Below are positions 41,397 through 54,841 of a stretch of DNA of 64,000 nt, piece after piece. Within the stretch, counting starts at the first letter, position 1. Every line of letters starts with the position of its first letter. The stretch is from NCBI GenBank assembly GCA_963920705.1, contig OY987225.1, positions 15,022,829 through 15,086,828 of the forward strand. Reading direction: 5' to 3'. The notes beneath the pieces are model-generated. The model did not search any database, was not told where the DNA came from, and saw nothing but the letters and a program-made list of their open reading frames with translations. This DNA is from Odiellus spinosus. Taxonomy: Eukaryota; Arthropoda; Arachnida; Opiliones; Phalangiidae. A program made the translations under genes and the position numbers.

Positions 41397-44300
41397 ACCT
41401 CCCCGACTGAACTTTAGTTCAGGGGGAGGTTTTACACTGGCCGTGTCTGTGTGTCTGTGTGTCTGTGGGTCTGTGTGTCTGTGGGTCCGTGTGTCTGTGT
41501 GTCACTTCCTGTGTAAGCGGATATCCTGTGTAACCGGAAATCACGTGACCTAGCTCATGGAGCCAAAAGTCTAGAGACGTAATCATACCAGCTTATCGTA
41601 CCTCCTTTAAGCGTGGCTGCCACATTGAGTTTCAAGTGTCGTGCAAAGACATACAACAGGACGTCTCCCATTGCACATCATCGCCTTCCGCCATCCACTT
41701 ACGGTCGAACCTCGATGCTGAACAGCCGAAGGCGATTACAAGCAGTGGGACGTCTCCCACTGTCATAATCACCTCCGACCGTCCCCACAACAAGGTCCAA
41801 ACCTCCAGTTTCCGATCTCAGCGTTCCATACTAGCGAGGCGTCCCCCACTAGTACAGTTCACATCAACCTTCCACTGACTCCAAACATCGCCCCACCAAT
41901 GGGTAAATTGCGTCGCCAAGCGCCTAGAGATCAAGAATCAGCAAGACATTGAAAGGGGGGGGGGTTTTCCCCCTAACTTCATGGCCATCACGCACGGTTA
42001 CTTCGATTAATATAGCCCTTCGAAAGGTTTATATAGTATCTTTTTGGAACGTATGCAAATTAGCCTCATGGGGTGATTTTGTTTGATATTGTTTAGGGAA
42101 ATGAAACGCAATATTAATTTATATTATAATTAAAAATATTAAAATGGTTCATCTTAATCTAATTAATTAGAAAGTCGAAAAATTAATTTAAAATTCGAGA
42201 TAGTTTAGAAGTTATTTGAGAATTTATGCAAAAATTTAAAGAAATTTGACCGATTAATGGCAGTTTTAGTTGGCAGCATGCGCCTAAGCTATTTTCCATA
42301 TATATCATTTACTCGAAAAAGCAAAGGTATAACGGGCAGTATAGGCTTATCTCTGGTGCAAACTTGGGGTGGATTGAAGAACTTAAATAAAGGTGCGTTT
42401 ACACGGGTATGGAAGATTGAAACAACATAATTTAGATAAGAGATAAGACAATAATAACTTCGATTATACTCGGTGAATTTTTAACCAGTTCAAGGGGAAT
42501 TGGTGTATAAGATTTGAAGCTGAGGCGGATTTATGCATAATGTTAAACCACTTAAGAAAAATGATAGTCGTGAAAACTCTCATCGAACAGAAGTAGAGTA
42601 GGTTTCCAGTGTATTTGTGACACGTGTAAAATCGAGTTCGCCAGCACGCGAGTATGTGTAGAGCACTAAATTTGAAGTCGGAAACCTCTTTACGCATGGA
42701 AAATATCAATGTGATTTTTTTTTGATATTCTTGGGAGAATCAGCTTCATGTATGGGGAAATATCGTAATCTTCTGGCAAACTTGCAAACAGTGGCGTATT
42801 TGGTTTTAATTACTGGCACGGATTTTCAAATTAATTTTTTTATAATTTTCGCGCGTTTCGCAAATGTATTTCGTGCGAAATTGTGTACATGCGCAGAGCG
42901 AACCAGGTTAACGCGGATACACACAGACCTGTTTTTACGCGTTTCACGCTCGTGAACTCATAGAAGTACCATTAGCACGCGCGAGCGAGGTGCAAACCAC
43001 TCTAGAAAAATTTTGTACACCTGATTCCAGATTCATTTGATTGTCAGTGATTCCGAATCAATTCGCGTGATTCCGAATTGATTCGTGATTCGCGTGATTC
43101 CGAATCGATTCTCGTGATTCCGAATCGATTCGCGTGATTCCGAATCGATTCGCGTGATTCCGTATCGATTCGCGTGATTCCGTATCGATTCTCGTGATTC
43201 CGAATCGATTCGCGTGATTCCGTATCGATTCTCGTGATTCCGAATCGATTCGCGTGATTCCGAATCGATTCGCGTGATTCCGAATCGATTCGCGTGATTC
43301 CGAATCGATTCGCGTGATTCCGTATCGATTCTCCTGATTCCGAATCGATTCGCGTGATTCCGAATCGATTCGCGTGATTCCGTATCGATTCGCGTGATTC
43401 CGTATCGATTCTCGTGATTCCGAATCGATTCGCGTGATTCCATTTAGTTTGTACACCTGATTCCAAGAGTGGTTTGCCCATTGCCCCTCGCGCGTGACCG
43501 TGAAAAGCGTGAAAATAGGTCTGTGTGAATCCGGCTTTAGTCATGCCACAATTAACAATTGACGAACTTTCTTAAACCGGATTGACATTGAAATTTCTCG
43601 TGTTTTAATAGTCATGTATGATATGGTTGACCCAAGAGTGAAATGTAGACAGAGTGAGGAAAAGAATCACGTGATTGGATCTCGTGATGACTGCTAGTTT
43701 TAGTTTCACACTTTTTCATACATGAATTTAATGTTAATCCCAATTAAGTATAATAGAACCAGGCTTTTAATGCCTACTGTCGTGTATTTCCGGTAACATT
43801 TTAGCTAGTGTGGAGTCACGTAAAATGACGTTTGTTTCACAACTTGGTATATTTTTACTCAGGCCTGCCCTGTCAGAAAAAAAATATATAAAAAATTTAT
43901 GGTAGGGCCAAAAGAGAAACATCTATTCTTTACTCACAGCATTATCACCAAAAAACGTGTTTTTAGACGTAGGCTTATAAGGTATCTGTAGGTCGTGTAG
44001 CACCAAAAAGCGAAATTGTACGTCACAGTTCGTAGTTTAGCGTGTTATGCGGAAAGCTTATTCGTTAATTGTTTATTGAATATGTTTATTTACGGTTATA
44101 TGACGATACCGAGGTCATAACTTGATTTTGATCAAATATTTTGCCTAATGACGTTACTTGGTCTACAAATACTCTAGTTTTCTTAACGCCGATATGATTT
44201 TACTGAGGGACCTTGACCTTGCTTATCTAAATTTTAATTTATTGAACGTAAAATCGTTTCATTTCTTTTGAAATCTTCGACGAAGTTTGTTCTCTAGAGA

Positions 44301-45440
44301 TTTGACTCGTTGAAATTTTAAATTAAGTTTCATTCGTTTGAATACAATTTATTGGTAAGGAAGTAATTTTGAATTTGAATCATTTATTTGATGCGTTTAT
44401 TATTTGTTTGGACATTTTTGGTATATTTTCATTGACCTGAACTCTAATTTTTATTACTGAGTTGTGACTGAAATATTAGTTTGGAAATCAAAAGGTTTTT
44501 TTTTTCTGACTCATTTTTCTCTGTAGTAATTTTTTGTTTTCGTAAAAGAGTTATTAATGCCTACTGTCGTTTATTTTCGGTGATGTTTTAGCTAGTGTGT
44601 AGTCACGTAAAATAACGTTTGTTTCACAACTTGTGTTGTATACTGAAGCCATGTATAGGTTCAATTTGATATAACATTTTGCCTTTTCACGTTACTTGGT
44701 CTACAAATACTCTACAACCGTCAAAATTCTGATATGGTTTTAAAAGAAGAACCTTGACCTTGTGTATTTAATCTCATATCGAGATTAAATGTTTTTGGCA
44801 TCTAATTTTAATTGGTTTATCAATATGTTATTTGTATAGATATTTTTTTTAAGATTTTATATTTTTTAGATTAAAATAAATTTATTATTCCAGAAGATTT
44901 TGTAGAATCTAGTTCTCAGGATTACCGGTGTTGAAAATTTATTTTGCTAATGTTATCTTGATGTCTGTGTTTTCTGCCCGCTATTTGGTAGTGGTAAGAT
45001 TAATATTTTTAATTTTAATTAATTGACTTATTTGGCGTTTATTTGATAATTTGCTTTACTTAAATTGTTCGTGTAAGGGCTATTTTACATATTACCAAAG
45101 ATTGCTAATTTCAGTTGTCTTAATTCTGATTTTTTTGTTTTAATACTGAATTATGGACTGGATTATTTATCTTGAAATCTATGTGGTTATATCTTATTTA
45201 TTTTCCTTTTTTTCTCTAGTTAGGTTTGGTTTTAAGTAGAGAATTATTTAGGGTTGTGTTGGTATACTGAAGAAATGCATATAGGTTCAATGTGATATAA
45301 TATTTTGCCTATTTCGCTGTTTCTTCTACTCATCCAATACTCTACATTTCTTTTCATCTTTTATTTTAGGTAGGGTTAGGTTAGGTTAGATTACCTTAAC
45401 GTCGGGGTCGGGGAGGTTATATTTTGGTTTCCCAACTTGT
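41397..45440. mobile_element. Large three-copy element, copy C (inverted, inside Penelope 2)
   Basis: It starts with the ACCTCCCCG...hairpin end and finishes with the inverse of ACAAGTTGGGAAACC. 41,397-42,600 matches the right half of copies A and B. The rest is longer and different, holding an element with a 20-bp minisatellite (42,905-43,540) and two copies of an 85-bp block (about 43,769 and 44,555) plus a linked GTTACTTGGTCTACAAATAC block (44,150 and 44,695). Removing it restores the Penelope frame (NSAH- to KIKIG), with about two extra A residues at the junction and no clear target duplication. No coding sequence was recognised in 43,545-45,440. Confidence 0.82.
42905..43540. mobile_element. 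MITE-like element with internal 20-bp minisatellite
   Basis: Inverted ends: CACACAGACCTGTTTTTACG (42,930 region) against the inverse of AAAATAGGTCTGTGTG (43,512-43,528). A second inner pair around CAAACCACTCT / AGAGTGGTTTG lies just outside the array. The array 43,045-43,441 has about 20 units of ATTCGCGTGATTCCGAATCG, with GAATCGATTC palindromes and a T/A variant (CGTATCG). Long open frames through it are artefacts of the 20-bp period. Confidence 0.8.
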
Positions 45441-45960
45441 TTTATTGTGTGCCGAATTATAATATAAGAAGGTTTTTGCATGGGTGGGTTTTTGATAGAG
45501 CGAACATTGGAAACTATTTTCAAGTCTATGGACATTTACGTCCAGGAAGGGTAATTGACCGCTTTTTTCCATCTCGAACGTGAATTGAATATTTTTATTT
45601 ATACCATTGGCTATATTTGTAATCGAATTTATATCTAAAAATTTGGTTTTTATTATAAATACATCATCTACGAATCTATTCCATAATTTTACGTGTTTTA
45701 TCATAATGTGGTTTTGCATAATTTTATTTTCTATAAATTCCATGACTAAGTTTGCAATCACACTCGAGAGTGGATTTCCCATCGCCAATCCATTTTTTTG
45801 TTTATAGTAATTTCCATTAAACTTAAAAAATGTATTTATTAGGCATAGCTCACTTAGTTTTAATATTGAATCTATACTCAATTTAGTTTTCCCCTTTAAT
45901 TCTTTATCATCTACTAATTTTTTCTTTAACACCTCAATAGCCAGTGGTAACTTTAAATTA
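45441..45960 (-). pseudogene. Penelope element 2, reverse transcriptase fragment
   Basis: Reads QKNGLAMGNPLSSVIANL, WNRFVDDVFIIK (catalytic Asp pair) and LPFLDVNV, then KPTHAKTFLYYNSAH before copy C cuts in. The N-terminal two thirds are missing at 45,960, a 5' truncation usual for PLEs. The last residues of the open frame beyond 45,441 are read from copy C and are not PLE. Confidence 0.88.
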
Positions 45961-46021
45961 AAGTTCTTTTAAATTTCTTCCATGTGCAATTTCTTCTATA
46001 AGTAAAAAAATTAAGTTTAAA
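45951..46021. repeat. Inverted flank of Penelope 2, right arm
   Basis: Reverse complement of 40,571-40,640, ending AAAAAAATTAAGTTTAAA. It contains the internal palindrome AACTTTAAATTAAAGTT. Confidence 0.75.
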
Positions 46022-46060
46022 ATATTTTAATTGTGAATTTTTTTACTGGTGGATTTTAAG

Positions 46061-46877
46061 GGAGAATACAACCCAAAAATAAATATTTCTTACCATTTCC
46101 AAGGGAAAAAAACCGAATTTGGGAAGATTTTGGAAAAATAATAGTTTGTGTGTCGAATCGAGATTTGGCAAGAAATCTAGGAAAAATGATAAATATCGAT
46201 TAGAAATAAATAAAGAATAATTAAAATAATTAATTCGTACCATTTCCCAGCAGAAAATTTGAATTTTGAAGAAGTTTGTAAAAATTAAATCCCGCAAGGA
46301 AAATGAAATTCTGCCTTTCGCTGGCTCATCTTGTTTGGTTTGCAAAAAAATTTCAAATGTGGAAAGTGTAATTTGTCGAGAAATCTATGGAAAATGGTAA
46401 ATATTAATTACAAATAATTATAGAATAAATAACTAAAACATTCCCTACCATTTCCAAGGGAAAAAAAACGAATTTGGGAAGATTTTGGAAAAATAATTGT
46501 TTGTGTGTCGAATCGAGATTTGGCCAGAAATGAAGGAAAAATGGTAAATATTGATTAGAAATTGATTGGAATAATTATAAAATAAATTACTATAATGATT
46601 CTTACCATTTCCAAGGGAAAATAAACCGAATTTGGGAAGATTTTGGAAAATTAATAGTTTGTGTGTCGAATCGAGATTTGGCAAGAAATCTAGGAAAAAT
46701 GGTAAATATCGATTAGAAATAAATAAAGAATATTTAATTCGTACCATTTCCCAGCAGAAAATTTGAATTTTTAAGAAGTTTGTAAAAATTAAATCCCGCA
46801 AGGAAAATGAAATTCTGCCTTTCGCTGGCTCATCTTGTTTGGTTTGCAAAAAAATTTAAAATGTGGAAAGTGTAATT
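46061..46877. repeat. Higher-order satellite, left block
   Basis: The unit is about 510 bp, made of three related subunits (about 159, 148 and 205 bp), each starting with CCATTTCC. Subunit starts are at about 46,093, 46,236, 46,448, 46,604 and 46,743. Words include GAATTTGGGAAGATTTTGGA and TTTGTGTGTCGAATCGAGAT. The first bases (TTAAGGGAGAATACAACCC) resemble the TTAA MITE end. It is cut at 46,877, in the middle of GTGTAATTTGGCGAG, by the 5'-truncated Gypsy element. Confidence 0.92.
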
Positions 46878-48061
46878 TGCAAAAACTCTCCGACGCTGGT
46901 CTTACCTTACAGACGAAGAAATGTCGTTTCGCCCAGAGCGAAGCGGTCGTCCTTGGACACGTCATAAACGAACGAGGAATTCACATCGATCCAGCCAAAA
47001 CGATAGCTATCGTTAAATTTCCAAGACCAAAGAACGTGAAAGATATTCAAAGATTTCTCGGCTTAGCTGGATGGCATCGAAAGTTCATTCCACAGTTCTC
47101 AAAGATAGTAGAATCTCTCAATCTTCTTAAAAGGAAGAATGTTCCATTTCAATGGGGAGAAAAACAACAAGCAGCTTTCGATCAAATCAAAGATGCCATT
47201 TGTACTGCTCCACCATTGGCAGCGTATAACTCTTCTCTCCCGTGTATTCTGACAACTGATGGCAGTCACGCAGGATTGGGCGCTTTCCTGTCCCAAATCC
47301 AAGGAGATGTGGAAGTTCCAATTGCCTATGCTAGTAAGATTCTGAGAGATGCTCAACTAAATTATACGACGACAGAGAAAGAATGTCTCGCTATTTATTG
47401 GGGAGTGCAAAAGTTCCGGCCCTATCTAGAAAACAAACCGTTCACAGTGATCACGGATCATAAGGCATTGCAGTGGTTATTTAACTTGAAGGAACCGAAC
47501 TCACGTCTTGTTCGCTGGGCGATGTACTTACAAACGTTCGACTTTAAGATCTTCCATAAAAAAGGAGTTGAAAATCGAATTGCTGACGCTTTATCAAGAG
47601 CTCCAGTATCTCTCTTAACACTCTCCTTAAGTACTTCAAGCTCCAGCGGAGCGACAACCAGTTCAGGTGTCAGTACTTCTACTGTATCTCCTTCTAGCGG
47701 TTCTTCCAGTGAAGACCGTCTACGTCTTCCAGGAGATCATGCAATGTGCCACGTCTTTACACTAAATGAGATCAGAACAGCGCAAAAAGAAGATCCGACC
47801 ATCAAGGAAATTATCGCCTTGTTAACTGGTCCAAACCCCAAAAGACACAAACTCTTCGAAATGAAAAACAACGTTGTCTATCGAAGATCGATCAGACGAT
47901 TACCGCCGAAGATCTATTTACCTCTCCGTCTGCGGAGGGAAGTCCTCCGTCTATCTCACAATCATCCTTTATCTGGACATCGAGGAAGAGATAGAACATT
48001 AGACAAGGTGAAAGTTAGATACTGGTGGCCATCTGTCAAGGAAGATGTGGTAGACTATGTA
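46878..48061 (+). pseudogene. Gypsy pol: RT thumb, RNase H and integrase zinc region
   Basis: RT remains from KLSDAGLTLQTKKCRF and GHVINERGI to FLGLAGWHRKFIPQFS. RNase H motifs follow: TTDGSHAGLGAFL (Asp), EKECLA (Glu), ITDHKALQW (Asp) and ENRIADALSR. A Ser-rich spacer (about 47,630-47,710) precedes the integrase HHCC region (SHNHPLSGHRGRDRT, YWWP). A TGA at 48,062-48,064 ends the frame inside the zinc-binding region. Open codons before 46,878 are satellite. Confidence 0.9.
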
Positions 48062-48064
48062 TGA

Positions 48065-48407
48065 GGTTATACTTTGTGTCAAATGCACAAAGCCCGAAAC
48101 AGCAAAATACCGGGATTAATGCAACCAACTGCTTTATCTGAACCGTTTGATCTACTAGGAGTAGACATTATGGGACCTTTGCCAGCGAGTAAACGTCAAT
48201 ACAAGTATTTACTCGTCTTCACGGACTATTCAACAAAATTCGTAGAATTACATCCTTTACGAAATATTACCGCGAAGAACTGTGCAAACAAGCTAGTCTC
48301 ATTAATAATACGTTATGGTTGTCCTAAGACCATTGTCAGCGACAACGGCACACAATTTGTTTCTCAATTATGGAAAGACATATTGAAAATATTCAAAATT
48401 AGACCTC
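48065..48407 (+). pseudogene. Gypsy integrase core, first part
   Basis: Continues in the same frame: CQMHKARNSKIPG, first catalytic Asp in GVDIMGPLP, second in IVSDNGTQF. At 48,407 the reading passes into the inserted Polinton fragment. The catalytic Glu lies beyond, at 49,410. Confidence 0.9.
48338..48407 (+). repeat. 69-70-bp duplication flanking the Polinton insert, left copy
   Basis: CAGCGACAACGGCACACAAT through AATTAGACCTC. It recurs at 49,313-49,381 with a two-base deletion (GACATATTG against GACATTG). Confidence 0.95.
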
Positions 48408-49312
48408 ATCAGCGTGCCATTGCGTAAATTTATTAAGACTATCGCGATCAAAATATTGGGCTCCATAGGCTTCGGTCGGCGGTAAGATTTTGTCCAAAAC
48501 GTAATTGGTTTCATTGTGTCGATTAATATCGAAATTATGATGCACTACATTAAATATGAAATGCGGGAAGTAGCCTTTCGTTGCCACATTTTTTAGTCCG
48601 AATGTCGAAGGGAACTTTGCTAGCGCAACCGGAATAAAACTGTACAACAACAGATTGAATAGCTTCATTTTAATTATTTTCGTGCCATTGATAATAACTT
48701 CCGGTTTCCATTGTTCATCTATATTCATGATTTCTTTAATTATTAGTTGATTATCGTAATTGGCTCCATTATGACTTAAAAGTACCACGTTTTTAACAGC
48801 GTGTAACGTTTGCAGATAGTTCAGAAAACTCGCGACGGGTTTGGGAGGCGGAAAACGATTCAAACTAGGACCAAATTGCGAGCAATTCACGCACGGTAGG
48901 TGGGCGGCCTTCTGGTCAATACAAGTTTCACATAAAGTTTCCGAAACGCATAGAATTGCCTCGTGTACGAAGGCACCCTTTTTTTCGTCGGATTTCTTAA
49001 TTTGAATAGTTTCAAAATCGAAAAAAATATATAGACAGTTAGGAACATTTGGTTTTTGTTTTTTTATCGGCGGTTTGTTTTCGATAGGTTTAATAATTTG
49101 TACGTAACATAAATGACTCGATGGTACGTATTTTTTACACACTGGACAATACATTTCCCCGCACGTATGCTTTTCTCGACGTCTGTCGTGATCTATTGTT
49201 TTGAAACATTCCTTACATGTAAATAATCGCTCGCAAAGAGATTTTTTTGACCCGATTTTGTTTAGATGACTATCGAAACACTCCACCGTTAAACGTTCTA
49301 GAACACTTGACG
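48408..49312 (-). pseudogene. Polinton/Maverick-type DNA polymerase B, exonuclease-domain fragment
   Basis: The minus-strand open frame has a cysteine-rich N-terminal zinc region (CKECFKTI, HTCGEMYCPVCKKY), exonuclease motif I (YIFFDFETIQ, Asp and Glu present), motif II (SHNGANYDNQLI) and the family-typical FIPVALAKFPSTFGL and KGYFPHFIFN. It ends at FTQWHADE before any polymerase catalytic motif. It is protein-primed family-B polymerase by similarity. 905 bp were inserted antisense in the Gypsy integrase. The open frame's first and last codons come from flanking Gypsy sequence. Confidence 0.85.
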
Positions 49313-49381
49313 CAGCGACAACGGCACACAATTTGTTTCTCAATTATGGAAAGACATTGAAAATATTCAAAATTAGACCTC
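49313..49381 (+). repeat. 69-70-bp duplication flanking the Polinton insert, right copy
   Basis: Second copy of 48,338-48,407. Because of the two-base deletion the integrase frame entering it does not match the frame leaving it. Confidence 0.95.
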
Positions 49382-49617
49382 GATATATCACGCCTTATCA
49401 TCCACAAGCAAATCTCGTGGAGAGAGTCAATCGAGTCATCGGAGATTTTATCTCGATATTCGTAGGAAATGATCATCGAAATTGGGATGAGAATATTCCA
49501 TTTATTCAATTCGTGATCAATTCAACACCTCACTCTACAACTGGAAGATCTCCATTTTTCTCAATATGGGGAGAGAACCCAGAATTCCGTGGGATTTGGA
49601 TAAAGGGATTCCACTAG
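49382..49617 (+). pseudogene. Gypsy integrase core, catalytic-Glu end
   Basis: Reads YITPYHPQANLVERVNRVIG (catalytic Glu in VERVNR), HRNWDENIPFIQFVINST and TGRSPFFSIWG. The frame then runs off; the true continuation is one base out of frame from about 49,566. Confidence 0.88.
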
Positions 49618-50432
49618 AAGATTTCGCAGAAAGATCCTCTACTACGGATTCGTTGGTCAAACAACTCGCTCTATCAAGAAAAATGGCCGAAAAAGCCAAA
49701 GCTCATCAGAAGCGATATTATGATCAAAGAAGAGCGGGAATTGAATTTCCCGTCGGTGCTTTGGTCTGGAAAGCAACTTATCCAATTTCACAAGCTGCTG
49801 CCAACATATCCGCGAAATTATCTCCTAAGTGGGAAGGACCGTATAAAATTGCACGGAAAATCGATCGATTAACATATCAGCTACAAAACCCTGAGACTGG
49901 AATCATTATTGGAAATGAAAACATCGCTCATTTGAAATTGTATTGGTCTAATAGAGGAGTCTGCACAGGACCTAATAGAAGCGGGGAAGAACAGATATCT
50001 TCTGGAGTACAGACTGATCCGCCTCGATCATCTTCATCGTCATCCGATGAATCCATAGTCAGACCCCAACGAAGAGTTCGTAATGCTATTAGTACCAGCA
50101 ATGAAGAAACATCAGCGATCGAATTACAAGCCAGTCCTCGAGTTTCAACTTCAGACCAAGAAACTCAAACAAAACAATCCTCATCTGCAGAAGGAGAAGT
50201 ATCCGAAGTGGATCCAGTAATTCAACCTGATCTGTCAGATCCAGGAATTCAGACTGATCTATCGGATCAACCTGATCCTCTACCGGTTCAGGATAACGAA
50301 GTCCTCGAGCTGGATGAAGGAGTTGTCCTGTCTGATATACCTGACATATCTCCAGATGAAGTGGAACCACGACCAATTGTTTCCGATTATCAGGAAGAAC
50401 CTGATCCGGAAATATTTGAGCTTTTTTTCTGA
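49566..50432 (+). pseudogene. Gypsy integrase C-terminus and acidic linker
   Basis: GREPRIPWDL continues the integrase. A C-terminal domain follows (GALVWKATYPIS, LSPKWEGPYKIARKIDRLTY), where an SH3-like GPY/F module is recognisable by WEGPYKI and is known in Gypsy integrases. After about residue 140 comes a Ser/Glu/Gln-rich linker with ETQTKQ- and IQTDLS-type repeats. A TGA at 50,430 after a T-run ends the frame; the same frame reopens at once and leads into the MBD-like domain. Confidence 0.85.
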
Positions 50433-50861
50433 TCCTCTAGAGAATTCCGAATTAATAGAATTCTTCCATACCAACTACCGGTGAACTATAATGCGAGAGA
50501 TGATTCTCTCTCGTCTTCTTCAGATGCTACTTCCGATGATGTTACCGAAACATCAGAAGTAGATGCTAGGGAAGAAGCCCCGATACCTGGGACTCCATTA
50601 GCCCCTGGGGAGTTCAAAAATCCATTTAGAAAAGGGTGGAGACGGGAAGTAGTGATATGAAAAAATCCTCAACCTGATGGTCCAAGCATGGATATATATT
50701 ATTATCCTCCTCCTGCATTTAAACAAGAAAGAATCCGCTCAATCCCTCATCTTTCGAGATATTTACGTGCTAATAAAATCTCAAACGTAAATTGGTATGA
50801 ATTTTGCTTCGAGCGACGGTCTATCTCTCACGAACCGTGGGAGACGACTCGACCTGCGAAT
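50433..50861 (+). pseudogene. MBD/TAM-like methyl-CpG-binding domain at the pol C-terminus
   Basis: In the same frame as integrase, after an acidic Ser-rich stretch (SLSSSSDATSDDVTE), NPFRKGWRREVVI begins at about 50,620. A TGA at 50,658 follows, and beyond it DIYYYPPP (about 50,700), RIRSIPHLSRYL and WYEFCFERR before TAA at 50,862. The pattern P-x(2)-GW-x-RE-x-V, D-[IV]-YYY-x-P, RS-x(3)-L-x-x-YL, F-x-F is that of MBD and TAM domains. By analogy with integrase chromodomains it could steer integration to methylated or particular chromatin (inference). The stop makes this copy non-functional as it stands. Confidence 0.75.
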
Positions 50862-50887
50862 TAAATTATTTTTTGTTCTAGGGTCCA

Positions 50888-51076
50888 ATGGGCACGTTTT
50901 GCCTTCGTGCTTTTCGTACAGATGACACCGAAAAAGTTCAGGGAATCCTCCTACCTACGACCATTTTCATGTCAACTCCGTTTCCATTAATCTCTACCGG
51001 AGCTTTAATACGAATGGGTTTTAAGGAAATAGAGCCACTCTGGGAATGGGAAGTCTTAGCGTTTAAACATCGCTGA
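50888..51076 (+). CDS. Start of the Gypsy 3' ORF region, unknown
   Basis: 62 codons (MGTFCLRAFRTDDTEK to WEVLAFKHR) follow a splice-acceptor-like TTTTTTGTTCTAG at 50,868-50,880. The next ORF begins 18 bases on in another frame. It may be the N-terminal part of the 3' ORF displaced by a small indel. No domain is recognised. Confidence 0.4.
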   Translation: MGTFCLRAFRTDDTEKVQGILLPTTIFMSTPFPLISTGALIRMGFKEIEPLWEWEVLAFKHR

Positions 51077-51094
51077 GAAAACTTTCCTCGCTCG

Positions 51095-52507
51095 TTGCTG
51101 GTGGGGAGTTCTCCTCCAGTCTCGCTTTCACGAATGGATTATTCCCTGCAGTTTTTCATGTCACACGCGCTGGTTATACGAGATGACCAGTCTCTCTTAT
51201 TAATGGATCTTCCGTTACTGAGAAAGATGCAAACGGTCATCTGCCCATGTCTGAAGTGTGAGGGTTTACTACCTATGCCGGGAGTAAATCGCTCGCTCAA
51301 CGGACCTCCCCCTGGATTTATCCAGGAATGGTATGGTATTCGACATCAAGCAACTCAAATGTCGGAATTTCCAATCTCTCAAAGAAATCAGAATCAAGAA
51401 ACGCAGACGTCGGACATTCCAATCTCTCGAAGAAATCAGACACAAGAAACGCAGACAGAGGTGATTAAAGAAGAAGTACTTATATTGCAACCTGAGCTGG
51501 AAGAAGTGCAAGGCTTCCTAAGTCCCCCTTCGACTTCGGGATTAAATTCTGAGGAGTTTAACACCCGCTGGACTAATCTTGGTCGCCGTGCTCCCTCGAC
51601 ACAACCCTTTGTTAATCTACCTGGAGAAGTCAATCAAAAAGAATGGGATTCTGAATTATACAAAGATATTCCTACCAACAAACCGAATACAACGTTCCCG
51701 TATCAGGGTCCTAGAAGACTCAATATCTCTGAATCGACTAACGCTGCGTGCGGGAGTGACCACAATGGCGTCCCGTCTTCAACCGACTTCAGGTGGGGAG
51801 GCAGACCAACCCCTGCAAGATCTTATTCAGCGCAAAGAGATCAAAAACGTATGGTGCATCAACCTCGTCCATGGAGAGAGCCTAACGAATCTTCCTCTCC
51901 ATCCTCGACACCCGTACACCGCGCTCCATCAAATAAAGAATTCCCCGTAAGACAATCTCCAGCGTTTATCACTAACTTTGACGGTTCGATTCAAATTCAG
52001 TTCGCGGGACGTTCTTCTTCCACTCCTATGCCTAGTACATCCTCCTCTACATTTTCACAATCTGTAACCACCGGTGGAATTTTGCCTCCAAAAGGAAGAG
52101 GAAGAGGACGCGGAAGAGCTCCTCCCCCGCGGGAATCAATTTCTACTAATTTATATTCGTTCCATCCAGATCAGGCTCCCTCGATCGGCAGTGCCAGTAC
52201 CTCGCCTTCTCATCAACCAGAACATCAACCCGAACATCGCAATTCTCCAACCTTCCAAAGGAGAGAAGTTCGCGATAATTCAAGTTCCGACGGACCTTCG
52301 TCGAAAAGAAGTAGCCCCGTACCCTCGACTAGAGATCGTGAGAGCGACATAAGAATACATCCGTGCAGAAGATGCCTTGTCCACATTCATCACGAAAGAG
52401 AGTGTCATTTAAAGAGACCAAAACCCTCCCAAGCCAAGAAGGAGCGCAAGGCTCACAAAAAGTGGCTAAAGAAGCAAGAAAAGGATGCTTCCGTTACTCC
52501 AGACTAA
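51095..52507 (+). CDS. Gypsy 3' ORF: low-complexity protein ending in a CCHC zinc knuckle
   Basis: 470 codons. A cysteine pair (CPCLKC) near residue 50, two tandem QRNQNQETQTS-type repeats (about 95-120), a long Pro/Ser/Thr/Gln-rich middle, an RG-rich patch (KGRGRGRGRAPPPRE, about 330-345), SHQPEHQPEHRN, and C-terminal CRRCLVHIHHEREC, an exact C-x2-C-x4-H-x4-C knuckle followed by a Lys-rich tail. No signal peptide or membrane segment is seen, so it is not a typical env. RG patch and knuckle suggest a nucleic-acid-binding, Gag-like role, but Gag is normally 5' of pol. The frame is long and uninterrupted. Confidence 0.7.
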   Translation: MLVGSSPPVSLSRMDYSLQFFMSHALVIRDDQSLLLMDLPLLRKMQTVICPCLKCEGLLPMPGVNRSLNGPPPGFIQEWYGIRHQATQMSEFPISQRNQNQETQTSDIPISRRNQTQETQTEVIKEEVLILQPELEEVQGFLSPPSTSGLNSEEFNTRWTNLGRRAPSTQPFVNLPGEVNQKEWDSELYKDIPTNKPNTTFPYQGPRRLNISESTNAACGSDHNGVPSSTDFRWGGRPTPARSYSAQRDQKRMVHQPRPWREPNESSSPSSTPVHRAPSNKEFPVRQSPAFITNFDGSIQIQFAGRSSSTPMPSTSSSTFSQSVTTGGILPPKGRGRGRGRAPPPRESISTNLYSFHPDQAPSIGSASTSPSHQPEHQPEHRNSPTFQRREVRDNSSSDGPSSKRSSPVPSTRDRESDIRIHPCRRCLVHIHHERECHLKRPKPSQAKKERKAHKKWLKKQEKDASVTPD

Positions 52508-52539
52508 AAACTTTTGTTTTGAGAGAGACGACCAGAATT

Positions 52540-52555
52540 TTTTTGTGGGGGAGGA
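52540..52555 (+). promoter_or_regulatory. Purine-rich tract before the 3' LTR
   Basis: GTGGGGGAGGA lies immediately 5' of the TGTAATG start of the LTR, the position and composition expected of the plus-strand primer. Confidence 0.7.
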
Positions 52556-53072
52556 TGTAATGGTCTAACCCTTCAAACACTATATCATTGTTATCATTCG
52601 GTCGTCTGCTGTCTGGACTATTGTATAAACTTTTTAGTGTCACCTTTTTTTTCTATCTTCTTATGTCCGGTCTTAAATCGGCTAGTATGTTTTTTCCCTC
52701 GCATATTAATTTTTTAGCGGGGGGATAAAACCAACCCCCCGCCCGACGAAAGGGACAGATTCTCTCTTTCCTCAGTCGGGACAACATAATTTTTTTTCTC
52801 TATAAAACGCGCAAAGTTCTGTCGCGGATAATTTTTGTAAAAGAGCGTGGGATTTACTGACTGTCAATACAGTGATAAATGGACAATTTGGTAATTAAAA
52901 TTTCTCTTTAGTTGAAAATCAGATTGTTGTCTTTATTTACGATTTCCGGTGAATTTTAATTCTTTGGCACGTAACGATCCTCCTTTTCAGTTAATTTAAA
53001 TTTAGAATTCTTTTTTATGTTAACGATTCCCCAATTGGCCTCATAGTTAGTTTATTAACTTAGTCCGTTACA
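52556..53072 (+). repeat. 3' LTR of the Gypsy element
   Basis: Begins TGTAATGG and ends CCGTTACA, short inverted repeats starting TG and ending CA. 517 bp. A TATAAAA box lies at 52,801. Sequence after the end returns at once to the satellite (ATAGAATAAATAACTAAAAC). No second LTR is in the window. Confidence 0.85.
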
Positions 53073-54349
53073 ATAGAATAAATAACTAAAACATTCCCTA
53101 CCATTTCAAAGGGAAAAAAAAACCGAATTTGGGAAGATTTTGGAAAAATAATTGTTTGTGTGTCGAATCGAGATTTGGCCAGAAATGAAGGAAAAATGGT
53201 AAATATTGATTAGAAATTGATTGGAATAATTATAAAATAAATTACTATAATGATTGTTACCATTTCCAAGGAAAAAAAAACTGAATTTGGGAAGATTTTG
53301 GAAAATTAATAGTTTGTGTGTCGAATCGAGATTTGGCAAGAAATCTAGGAAAAATGGTAAATATCGATTAGAAATAAATAAAGGATAATTAATATAATTA
53401 ATTCGTACCATTTCCCAGCAGAAAATTTGAATTTTTAAGAAGTTTGTAAAAATTAAATCCCGCAAGGAAAATGAAATTCTGCCTTTCGCTGGCTCATCTT
53501 GTTTGGTTTGCAAAAAAATTTAAAATGTGGAAAGTGTAATTTGGCGAGAAATCTATGGAAAATGGTAAATATTAATTGCAAATAAGTATAGAATAAATAA
53601 CTAAAACATTCCCTACCATTTCCAAGGGAAAAAAAACCGAATTTGGGAAGATTTTGGAAAAATAGTTTGTGTGTCGAATCGAGATTTGGACAGAAATGAA
53701 GGAAAAATGGTAAATATTGATTAGAAATTGATTGGAATAATTATAAAATAAATTAATGATTGTTACCATTTCCAAGGGAAAAAAAAACTCAATTTGGGAA
53801 GATTTTGGAAAATTAATAGTTTGTGTGTCGAATCGACATTTGGCAAGAAATCTAGGAAAAATGGTAAATATCGATTAGAAATAAATAAAGGATAATTAAT
53901 ATAATTAATTCGTACCATTTCCCAGCAGAAAATTTGAATTTTTAAGAAGTTTGTAAAAATTAAATCCCGCAAGGAAAATGAAATTCTGCCTTTCGCTGGC
54001 TCATCTTGTTTGGTTTGCAAAAAAATTTAAAATGTGGAAAGTGTAATTTGGCGAGAAATCTATGGAAAATGGTAAATATTAATTGCAAATAAGTATAGAA
54101 TAAATAACTAAAACATTCCCTACCATTTCCAAGGGAAAAAAAAAACGAATTTGGGAAGATTTTGGAAAAATAATTGTTTGTGTGTCGAATCGAGATTTGG
54201 CCAGAAATGAAGGAAAAATGGTAAATATTGATTAGAAATTGATTGGAATAATTATAAAATAAATTACTATAATGATTCTTACCATGTCCAAGGGAAAAAA
54301 ACCGAATTTGGGAAGATTTTGGAAAAATAATAGTTTGTATGTCGAATCG
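53073..54349. repeat. Higher-order satellite, right block
   Basis: Two full roughly 510-bp units and part of a third. The ACATTCCCTACC word occurs at 53,091, 53,606 and 54,113 (periods 515 and 507). Five near-identical minus-strand frames beginning MQTKQDEPAKGRIS, counted over both blocks, are artefacts of the repeat. It ends at GAATCGAG, where the LINE fragment begins inside a 7-bp shared word. Confidence 0.92.
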
Positions 54350-54841
54350 AGGCCACTTTCAAAAACTATTCCTCCCACGCTACAACACATCTTACCGCAA
54401 ACATCATTTTGCCCTACATGTGATCCCCCACTGGAACTCTCTCGCCAATGACTTAATTACTAAACCCTCTCGTTCTAAACCGCTCTACATCATTATCGCG
54501 ACATAAAGTGGTTCCTTACTACTTAGGTTCACAATACGAAGAAGAAGTGTTATGTAACTCAAAACATTGTACATTCATTGGATTTACACAAGAATTCAGT
54601 GCTTGAAGGAAATAAATTGGTTACTTAGTGAATGAAAAACAACCCGAAACCAAGACTACCAATCTACTAGCGTATATCGTGAAAAACATTTATATATAAT
54701 ATAAAATCTCTTGATCTTCTATAACTATAATTGCAGAGCTGTAACTATTAACAATATGCTTCTTTAATCTATTGTTTCTATAGTCAGTGAAGGACCACCA
54801 GTTTTGAGACCATACATCTCTTGATTGCCATTTTAAGTTTT
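54350..54841 (+). pseudogene. LINE 3' fragment, second copy (inverted relative to 1,612-2,108)
   Basis: Plus frame: HFQKLFLPRYNTSYRKHHF and HVIPHWNSLANDL, then the stop and 3' UTR. It matches the reverse complement of 1,612-2,108. Copy B interrupts its downstream flank at 54,842, and the flank resumes at 57,736. Confidence 0.75.

Follow-up and report, generated by a model that had tools for sequence, protein, structure and literature searches.

Through chromodomains, retroelements can read histone marks when choosing an integration site. A methyl-CpG-binding domain (MBD) is likewise said to have been captured by an arthropod retrotransposon family, Copia, in work by de Mendoza, Pflueger and Lister from 2019 (Genome Res 29:1277). 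PMC11721087 cites this work where it mentions copia and CpG density. In Ty3, the chromodomain of the integrase tail contacts TFIIIB as well as the tRNA gene and determines where the element integrates (PMC8632968). Here, we analyze a stretch of 64,000 nucleotides from Odiellus spinosus (C1:15022829-15086828 of a 443-Mb genome), referred to below as the window. It contains a defunct member of a diverse Ty3/Gypsy clade of long terminal repeat (LTR) retrotransposons whose pol ends in an MBD. The MBD stands behind the SH3/GPY module of integrase, the position occupied by the chromodomain in chromoviruses. That a clade of MBD-bearing Gypsy elements exists is, in our judgment, nearly certain.

A preliminary description of this DNA had pointed to four MBD-like motifs, and GWRREVV, DIYYYPP, RSIPHLSRYL and FCF are all found in plus-strand frame 3, where it had placed them. 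The domain is confirmed by Pfam, with PF01429 matching residues 62-133 of the frame starting at 50433 (window positions 50616-50831; E = 3.7e-10, 39.7 bits, cut-off 21), and the same family scores 44.7 bits in the relative L017 and 41.0 bits in L022. The preliminary description had named as a refutation the lack of any above-threshold MBD match together with a different predicted fold; the Pfam match exceeds its threshold. An AlphaFold2 model of the window MBD, with the database protein P0070 as the sole other row, has a predicted local distance difference test score (pLDDT) of 48.5. The Gypsy MBD sample comprises 32 sequences plus the window. Alignment A2 holds 15 plus the window; the sequences left out were for the most part near-copies or had a stop codon within or downstream of the MBD. 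Residues were counted in 22 sequences, namely the A2 rows, five further low-identity loci and P0070. Two arginines, an aspartate, a tyrosine and a serine are presumably the residues that contact methylated CpG (mCpG) in MeCP2, MBD1 and MBD2. These presumed contact residues are retained across divergent Gypsy copies: arginine finger 1 in 21 of 22 (the window has a stop), Asp in 21 of 22 (Ala in L070), Tyr and Ser in 22 of 22 each, and arginine finger 2 in 21 of 22 (His in L022). At the five key columns MBD4 carries the same residues as the Gypsy MBDs; the residues there are R, E, C, R, N in the host's BAZ2 and L, Q, F, R, N in its SETDB1. At their N-terminus the Gypsy MBDs have a P-[FL]-x-x-GW stretch that is similar to the exons of host BAZ2 and SETDB1.

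Relatives in the same genome carry the fusion in uninterrupted form. A Pfam MBD search of the genome scored the best 150 of 415 candidates, and the first 20 loci examined comprise 15 Copia elements or parts of them (assigned from their open reading frames, ORFs), three Gypsy elements, a host BAZ2-like gene (L028) and L023, whose 1450-aa open frame was rejected as an MBD element, being mostly an array with copies 23 bases apart. The Gypsy pol ORFs measure 1655 aa in L017, 1619 aa in L020 and 1706 aa in L022. In L017 and L022, pol is uninterrupted, with RVT_1, RT_RNaseH, H2C2 and rve above the Pfam cut-off and SH3 below it, followed by the linker and a C-terminal MBD. ORF1 of L022 matches zf-CCHC above the cut-off (27.1 bits) and Retrotrans_gag below it (20.4 bits, cut-off 24.1). 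No LTR pair was found in the 10-kb stretches of L017, L020 and L022; the ends of L020 and L022 probably lie outside, because gag starts at or before the edge of the stretch. A genome search with the MBD tail of L022 scored the best 150 of 273 candidates; one of these rows, a fragment belonging to a copy that was listed already, was removed. Open frames of at least 1250 aa are present in 29 of the 149 remaining rows, one of them, on C261 (L033), with a stop inside the MBD. Eight of the 15 Copia loci have an LTR pair that is 100% identical. L010, the sole Copia locus among the first 20 that was scanned with Pfam, has the order rve (517-614), SH3 (674-745), MBD (840-907) and RVT_2 (965-1203). Between two pieces of what appears by eye to be an HSP70-like gene lies L018 (C8:13509718-13519717), a Copia-MBD element whose LTRs are 100% identical.

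In a genome search with the integrase as query, the best 150 of 1963 candidates were scored, and these were paired by position with the MBD matches of the two genome searches above (MBD 0.5-4.5 kb downstream, on whichever strand). Where integrase identity is at least 50%, a scored MBD lies downstream of 79 of 107 matches, and of 27 of 31 with ORFs of at least 1200 aa; below 50% identity, the counts among the MBD matches listed are 14 of 43 and, for long ORFs, 5 of 16. Seven were examined of the 21 integrase matches with an ORF of at least 900 aa and no scored MBD, all below 50% identity, and a profile built from A2 finds an in-frame terminal MBD in six. Pfam, run on five of these six, places L065, L068 and L069 above the cut-off and L067 below it (17.3 bits, cut-off 21), with no match in L070; the sixth, L071, is a near-copy of L068. 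In the seventh locus, L066, neither the A2 profile nor Pfam finds an MBD, and the longest of the frames that are open from the beginning of the stretch resembles a reverse transcriptase (RT) of an unrelated kind. One integrase match, G000:C9:892814, is 98% identical to L022 and sits in an unusually long ORF of 3823 aa.

Pol trees were built on RNase H plus integrase, with the MBD excluded, and contain seven MBD-bearing rows (L017, L020, L022, L041, L042, the window and P0070). These form one clade in a quick tree of 43 rows, with a value of 99 in the SH-like approximate likelihood ratio test (SH-aLRT); the 36 other rows came from a set of 239 database proteins and were selected for their similarity to L022 or for bearing a chromodomain. 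The clade recurs with support of 100/99 in a careful tree, which was reduced to 32 rows by taking out 11 that were near-duplicates or had long branches. Among the rows used, the MBD-bearing pols are a single clade. P0070 is a 1228-aa protein on a 4987-bp contig from another data set, and has the order RT-RNaseH-integrase-MBD with a Pfam MBD score of 27.1 bits; its best match among the loci compared is L011, at 49%. It is the only bearer of a precomputed Pfam MBD in the best 120 of 7515 matches of a protein search with the L022 RT-integrase region. A query with the integrase-MBD part of P0070 returned no further MBD bearers in the best 120 of 182, and the L022 MBD tail alone returned nothing at E <= 0.001 among 48 candidates. 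The earlier proposal that an element family had gained the MBD in frame with integrase is upheld by the uninterrupted relatives and by the single pol clade.

The same description expected the domain to be kept by selection, and the Gypsy MBD is indeed under purifying selection. Pairwise Nei-Gojobori ratios of nonsynonymous to synonymous substitution (dN/dS) in three pol pairs are 0.097, 0.157 and 0.156 for the MBD plus tail, 0.290, 0.224 and 0.258 for the linker, and 0.016, 0.034 and 0.036 for RT. Twelve further pairs compared over the MBD only give 0.075-0.215 in eight, with dS saturated in the other four. The pol of L022 is itself a mosaic, near L017 from protease to H2C2 (dS 0.17-0.38) and near L020 from rve to the linker (dS 0.05-0.08), as if subfamilies had recombined.

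The window copy is a fossil: truncated, frameshifted, broken by stops and carrying an insert in integrase. Its features are the following.

46811-48064, plus strand: truncated pol, with the end of RT (by eye), RNase H and the start of the integrase H2C2 zinc domain; 417-aa ORF
48065-48427, plus strand: first part of the integrase core (GVDIMGPL ... SDNGTQF); 120-aa ORF, read by eye
48399-49343, minus strand: foreign insert splitting the integrase core; 314-aa ORF, from the ORF list
49270-49617, plus strand: last part of the integrase core (ITPYHPQANLVERVNRV), frameshifted; ORF read by eye
49491-50432, plus strand: integrase C-terminus (SH3/GPY type) and acidic/Ser-rich linker, frame 3; 313-aa ORF
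50616-50831, plus strand: methyl-CpG-binding domain, in the frame of ORF 49491-50432; PF01429, alignments A1 and A2, key columns
51077-52507, plus strand: ORF3 after pol, 476 aa, with a CCHC-like knuckle near the C-terminus and a basic tail; from the ORF list

Pfam finds PF17917 (124.7 bits), PF17919 (114.1 bits) and PF17921 (52.5 bits) in the first of these ORFs, which shares one frame with ORF 48065-48427. The antisense insert is about 0.9 kb long. By eye, its 314-aa ORF resembles a DNA polymerase B such as Polinton-type elements encode; Pfam lends this no support, its sole match being a sub-threshold zf-CHY (17.1 bits, cut-off 31.3). ORF 49270-49617 matches no Pfam family at E <= 1. The MBD had been described as following a GPY-type module and an acidic linker in one frame, and this layout holds, with the SH3/GPY module (PF24626, 25.5 bits, under the cut-off of 30) and the Ser/acidic linker both in ORF 49491-50432; the integrase core upstream of the module sits in other frames than the MBD. 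In-frame stops fall at 50430-50432 and at 50658-50660, the latter in the column of arginine finger 1, and the MBD frame terminates at 50862-50864. No RT start, protease, gag or LTR pair was recognised in the ORF list for 44000-53500 or in a self-comparison of the window, neither of which was a dedicated search. A second copy, L051, lies 881 kb away and is 99.8% identical over the 546 bases compared; the pair looks like a segmental duplication and not like two insertions, because of this near-identity and the equal distance of 2692 bp from integrase match to MBD match in both.

Around the Gypsy remnant, 46087-46879 and 53073-54350 flank it as members of one repeat family (about 95% identity), and a 183-aa ORF at 45417-45968 on the minus strand has reverse-transcriptase-like residues and appears Penelope-like by eye. 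Rfam has no match across the window. An ORF3 follows pol in L017, L020, L022, L041, L042 and the window, with lengths of 384-476 aa and, in L041, 488 aa reaching the end of the stretch. A CCHC-like knuckle is present near the C-terminus in five of the seven ORF3 sequences inspected (a fragment in L012 included), and homology between subfamilies is barely detectable. None of the three scanned (window, L022 and L020) has a Pfam match, at E <= 1 for the window. A reading of ORF3 as an envelope protein is unsupported, since the top 19-residue hydropathy mean among the seven sequences is 1.45, with no strongly hydrophobic stretch.

Using cut-offs of ORF length as a proxy for intactness, we compared the surroundings of Gypsy-MBD (29), Copia-MBD (24) and BEL copies (72); BEL positions came from the best 150 of 564, and two host exons (BAZ2 and SETDB1) were removed beforehand. 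Long-ORF copies have on average 2.45 (Gypsy-MBD), 1.92 (Copia-MBD) and 0.60 (BEL) decayed LTR matches within 500 kb, with one-sided p values against BEL of 2.8e-4 for Gypsy-MBD and 4.7e-3 for Copia-MBD; the copies are not independent of one another. On contigs 1-18, with one value per ORF length, the means are 3.34, 1.99 and 0.72 in the same order (p = 0.0015 and 0.078). The array artefact L023 was dropped from this second test and counted as a Copia row in the full one. This location in DNA rich in transposable elements (TEs) is compatible with targeting, not proof of it. The preliminary description had offered targeting or self-recognition as the role of the domain, and such a role is an inference, for which the evidence consists of the location statistics and the residue conservation. 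An MBD in the position of the tail chromodomain would most simply give the intasome an affinity for marked DNA. The MBD would stay joined to integrase after maturation and would let the intasome bind chromatin marked by CpG methylation (or in another way). Insertion would be biased toward such chromatin, here TE-rich blocks in which new copies would do the host little harm. We lean toward target choice guided by methylation through the MBD, judging it somewhat more likely than not. A wider proposal is that two LTR superfamilies independently fused a methylation reader behind integrase; that the Gypsy version, ancestral to its clade and probably present beyond this species (P0070), directs insertion to methylated DNA; and that 5-methylcytosine (5mC) would be a target mark read repeatedly, as chromoviruses read histone marks. 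This proposal is tentative, and we give it slightly less than an even chance.

The alternatives concern both the origin of the domain and its function. Taken by itself, the window copy, with its stops, frameshifts and insert, would suit a host-gene fragment that landed by chance behind a dead integrase. The preliminary description had named related intact copies lacking the region as the sign of such a post-mortem arrival; uninterrupted copies instead carry the MBD in frame. The fusion occurs in many such ORFs, in one pol clade and in a relative from another data set, and is under purifying selection. A chance landing therefore has virtually no probability left and is refuted by the in-frame relatives. 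The Gypsy MBD could also derive from the Copia-MBD elements of the same genome, or the reverse, instead of from a host gene. A 70-column MBD tree constrained to a single Gypsy plus Copia clade is not rejected by the approximately unbiased test (p-AU 0.164), and neither are Gypsy plus BAZ2 (0.377) or Copia alone (0.070). The nearest solved structures differ, however: the Gypsy profile finds the BAZ2B and BAZ2A TAM domains (3.3e-9 to 1.3e-8), then MBD4 and others, and the Copia profile finds MBD2 (1e-15), with BAZ2 last of 32. In the unconstrained tree the Gypsy MBDs form one clade (91/80, not starred) and the Copia MBDs stand beside MBD2 and MBD4, a weak separation on 70 columns. A transfer between the two element types thus appears improbable, and because of the different nearest solved relatives and the tree placement, two separate captures are likely, though not proven.

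With respect to function, the MBD could be a general nucleic-acid-binding module of TAM type, holding cDNA or target DNA whatever its methylation. BAZ2 TAM domains, the nearest solved relatives of the Gypsy profile, are not known to be methyl-specific, and the Gypsy MBDs share their N-terminal stretch with host BAZ2 and SETDB1 exons. CpG is undepleted: its observed/expected ratio is 1.01 for the window as a whole, ranging from 0.78 to 1.38 among 8-kb blocks and from 0.83 to 1.35 across the 20 loci measured. Against such a module stand the two arginine fingers and the Asp, Tyr and Ser, which the Gypsy MBDs keep and of which the last three are replaced in both host proteins (E, C, N in BAZ2 and Q, F, N in SETDB1). 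We regard it as unlikely, if a serious contender. Another possibility is self-recognition or anti-silencing, in which the MBD would bind the element's own methylated copies and either nest insertions in them or compete with host repressors. Some Gypsy-MBD and Copia-MBD copies are near each other (e.g., C45:595758 and C45:600503), and decayed Gypsy-MBD copies are closer to long-ORF Gypsy-MBD copies than to BEL copies (p = 4e-4, 500 kb). This neighbourhood effect is not self-specific, because it is similar with decayed Copia matches (p = 2.7e-4), and the placement of the MBD behind integrase points to a function in integration; we find self-recognition distinctly improbable.

Several observations weigh against methylation-guided targeting itself, beyond the TAM kinship and the undepleted CpG just described. 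Six Copia LTR pairs differ by 10 substitutions in total, of which only 1 is a CpG transition; with CpG undepleted, base composition gives no evident sign of germline TE methylation. When neighbours are limited to decayed BEL copies, the location effect weakens: at 500 kb p is 0.096 for Gypsy-MBD and 0.46 for Copia-MBD, at 1 Mb it is 0.105 and 0.115, and at 2 Mb 0.023 and 0.025. The location comparator is BEL and not an MBD-less Gypsy control, with positions taken from best-N listings, and the pol tree likewise contains no MBD-less Gypsy from the same genome. Individual members have also lost parts of the domain: L022, the main uninterrupted example, has His at finger 2, L070 has neither the Asp nor a Pfam match, and L067 scores below the cut-off. 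The methylation machinery is present in the host, whose genome encodes DNMT1, DNMT2 and an SRA domain. TTAGG, the arthropod-type telomere repeat, is also present in arrays among the matches listed, one of them less than 4 kb from the right end of contig C1.

The preliminary description suggested that an MBD-Gypsy family may be new. This holds for the Ty3/Gypsy lineage and for the place of the MBD, and not for the idea, since MBD capture by a retrotransposon has already been published for arthropods. No Ty3/Gypsy element with an MBD appears in the titles and opening lines of abstracts from the literature searched, which leaves out most subscription-journal papers. The conserved domain of methyl-CpG-reader type in the chromodomain's place makes the question of 5mC as a target mark directly testable, and the presence of differently arranged Gypsy-MBD and Copia-MBD elements in one genome allows a test of whether the innovation arose more than once.

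Among known systems, the host proteins BAZ2, SETDB1, MBD2 and MBD4 belong to the same MBD fold family, whereas the Gypsy MBD is part of a retroelement pol; its N-terminal stretch is like that of BAZ2 and SETDB1, and its presumed mCpG residues are like those of MBD2 and MBD4. The arthropod Copia-MBD elements are also reported to be LTR retrotransposons with an MBD C-terminal to integrase, and L010 is such a Copia in this genome. Their order places integrase and MBD before RT, whereas the Gypsy-MBD elements (L017, L022 and P0070) have RT-RNaseH-IN-MBD (IN, integrase), with the MBD at the end of pol. The Gypsy version further differs in having a profile nearest to the BAZ2 TAM and not to MBD2, a long linker, a recurrent tail after the MBD and an ORF3. 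We read the MBD of L010, C-terminal to integrase yet before RT, as convergence on one solution. No chromodomain (PF00385) match was found in the pols scanned, the Gypsy-MBD elements having an MBD instead, and P0188 and P0190, the two chromodomain bearers retained in the careful tree, do not belong to the MBD clade. Chromoviruses and Ty3 nevertheless share with the Gypsy-MBD elements a chromatin-type domain fused behind the C-terminal domain of integrase, where the MBD may act as a targeting tail.
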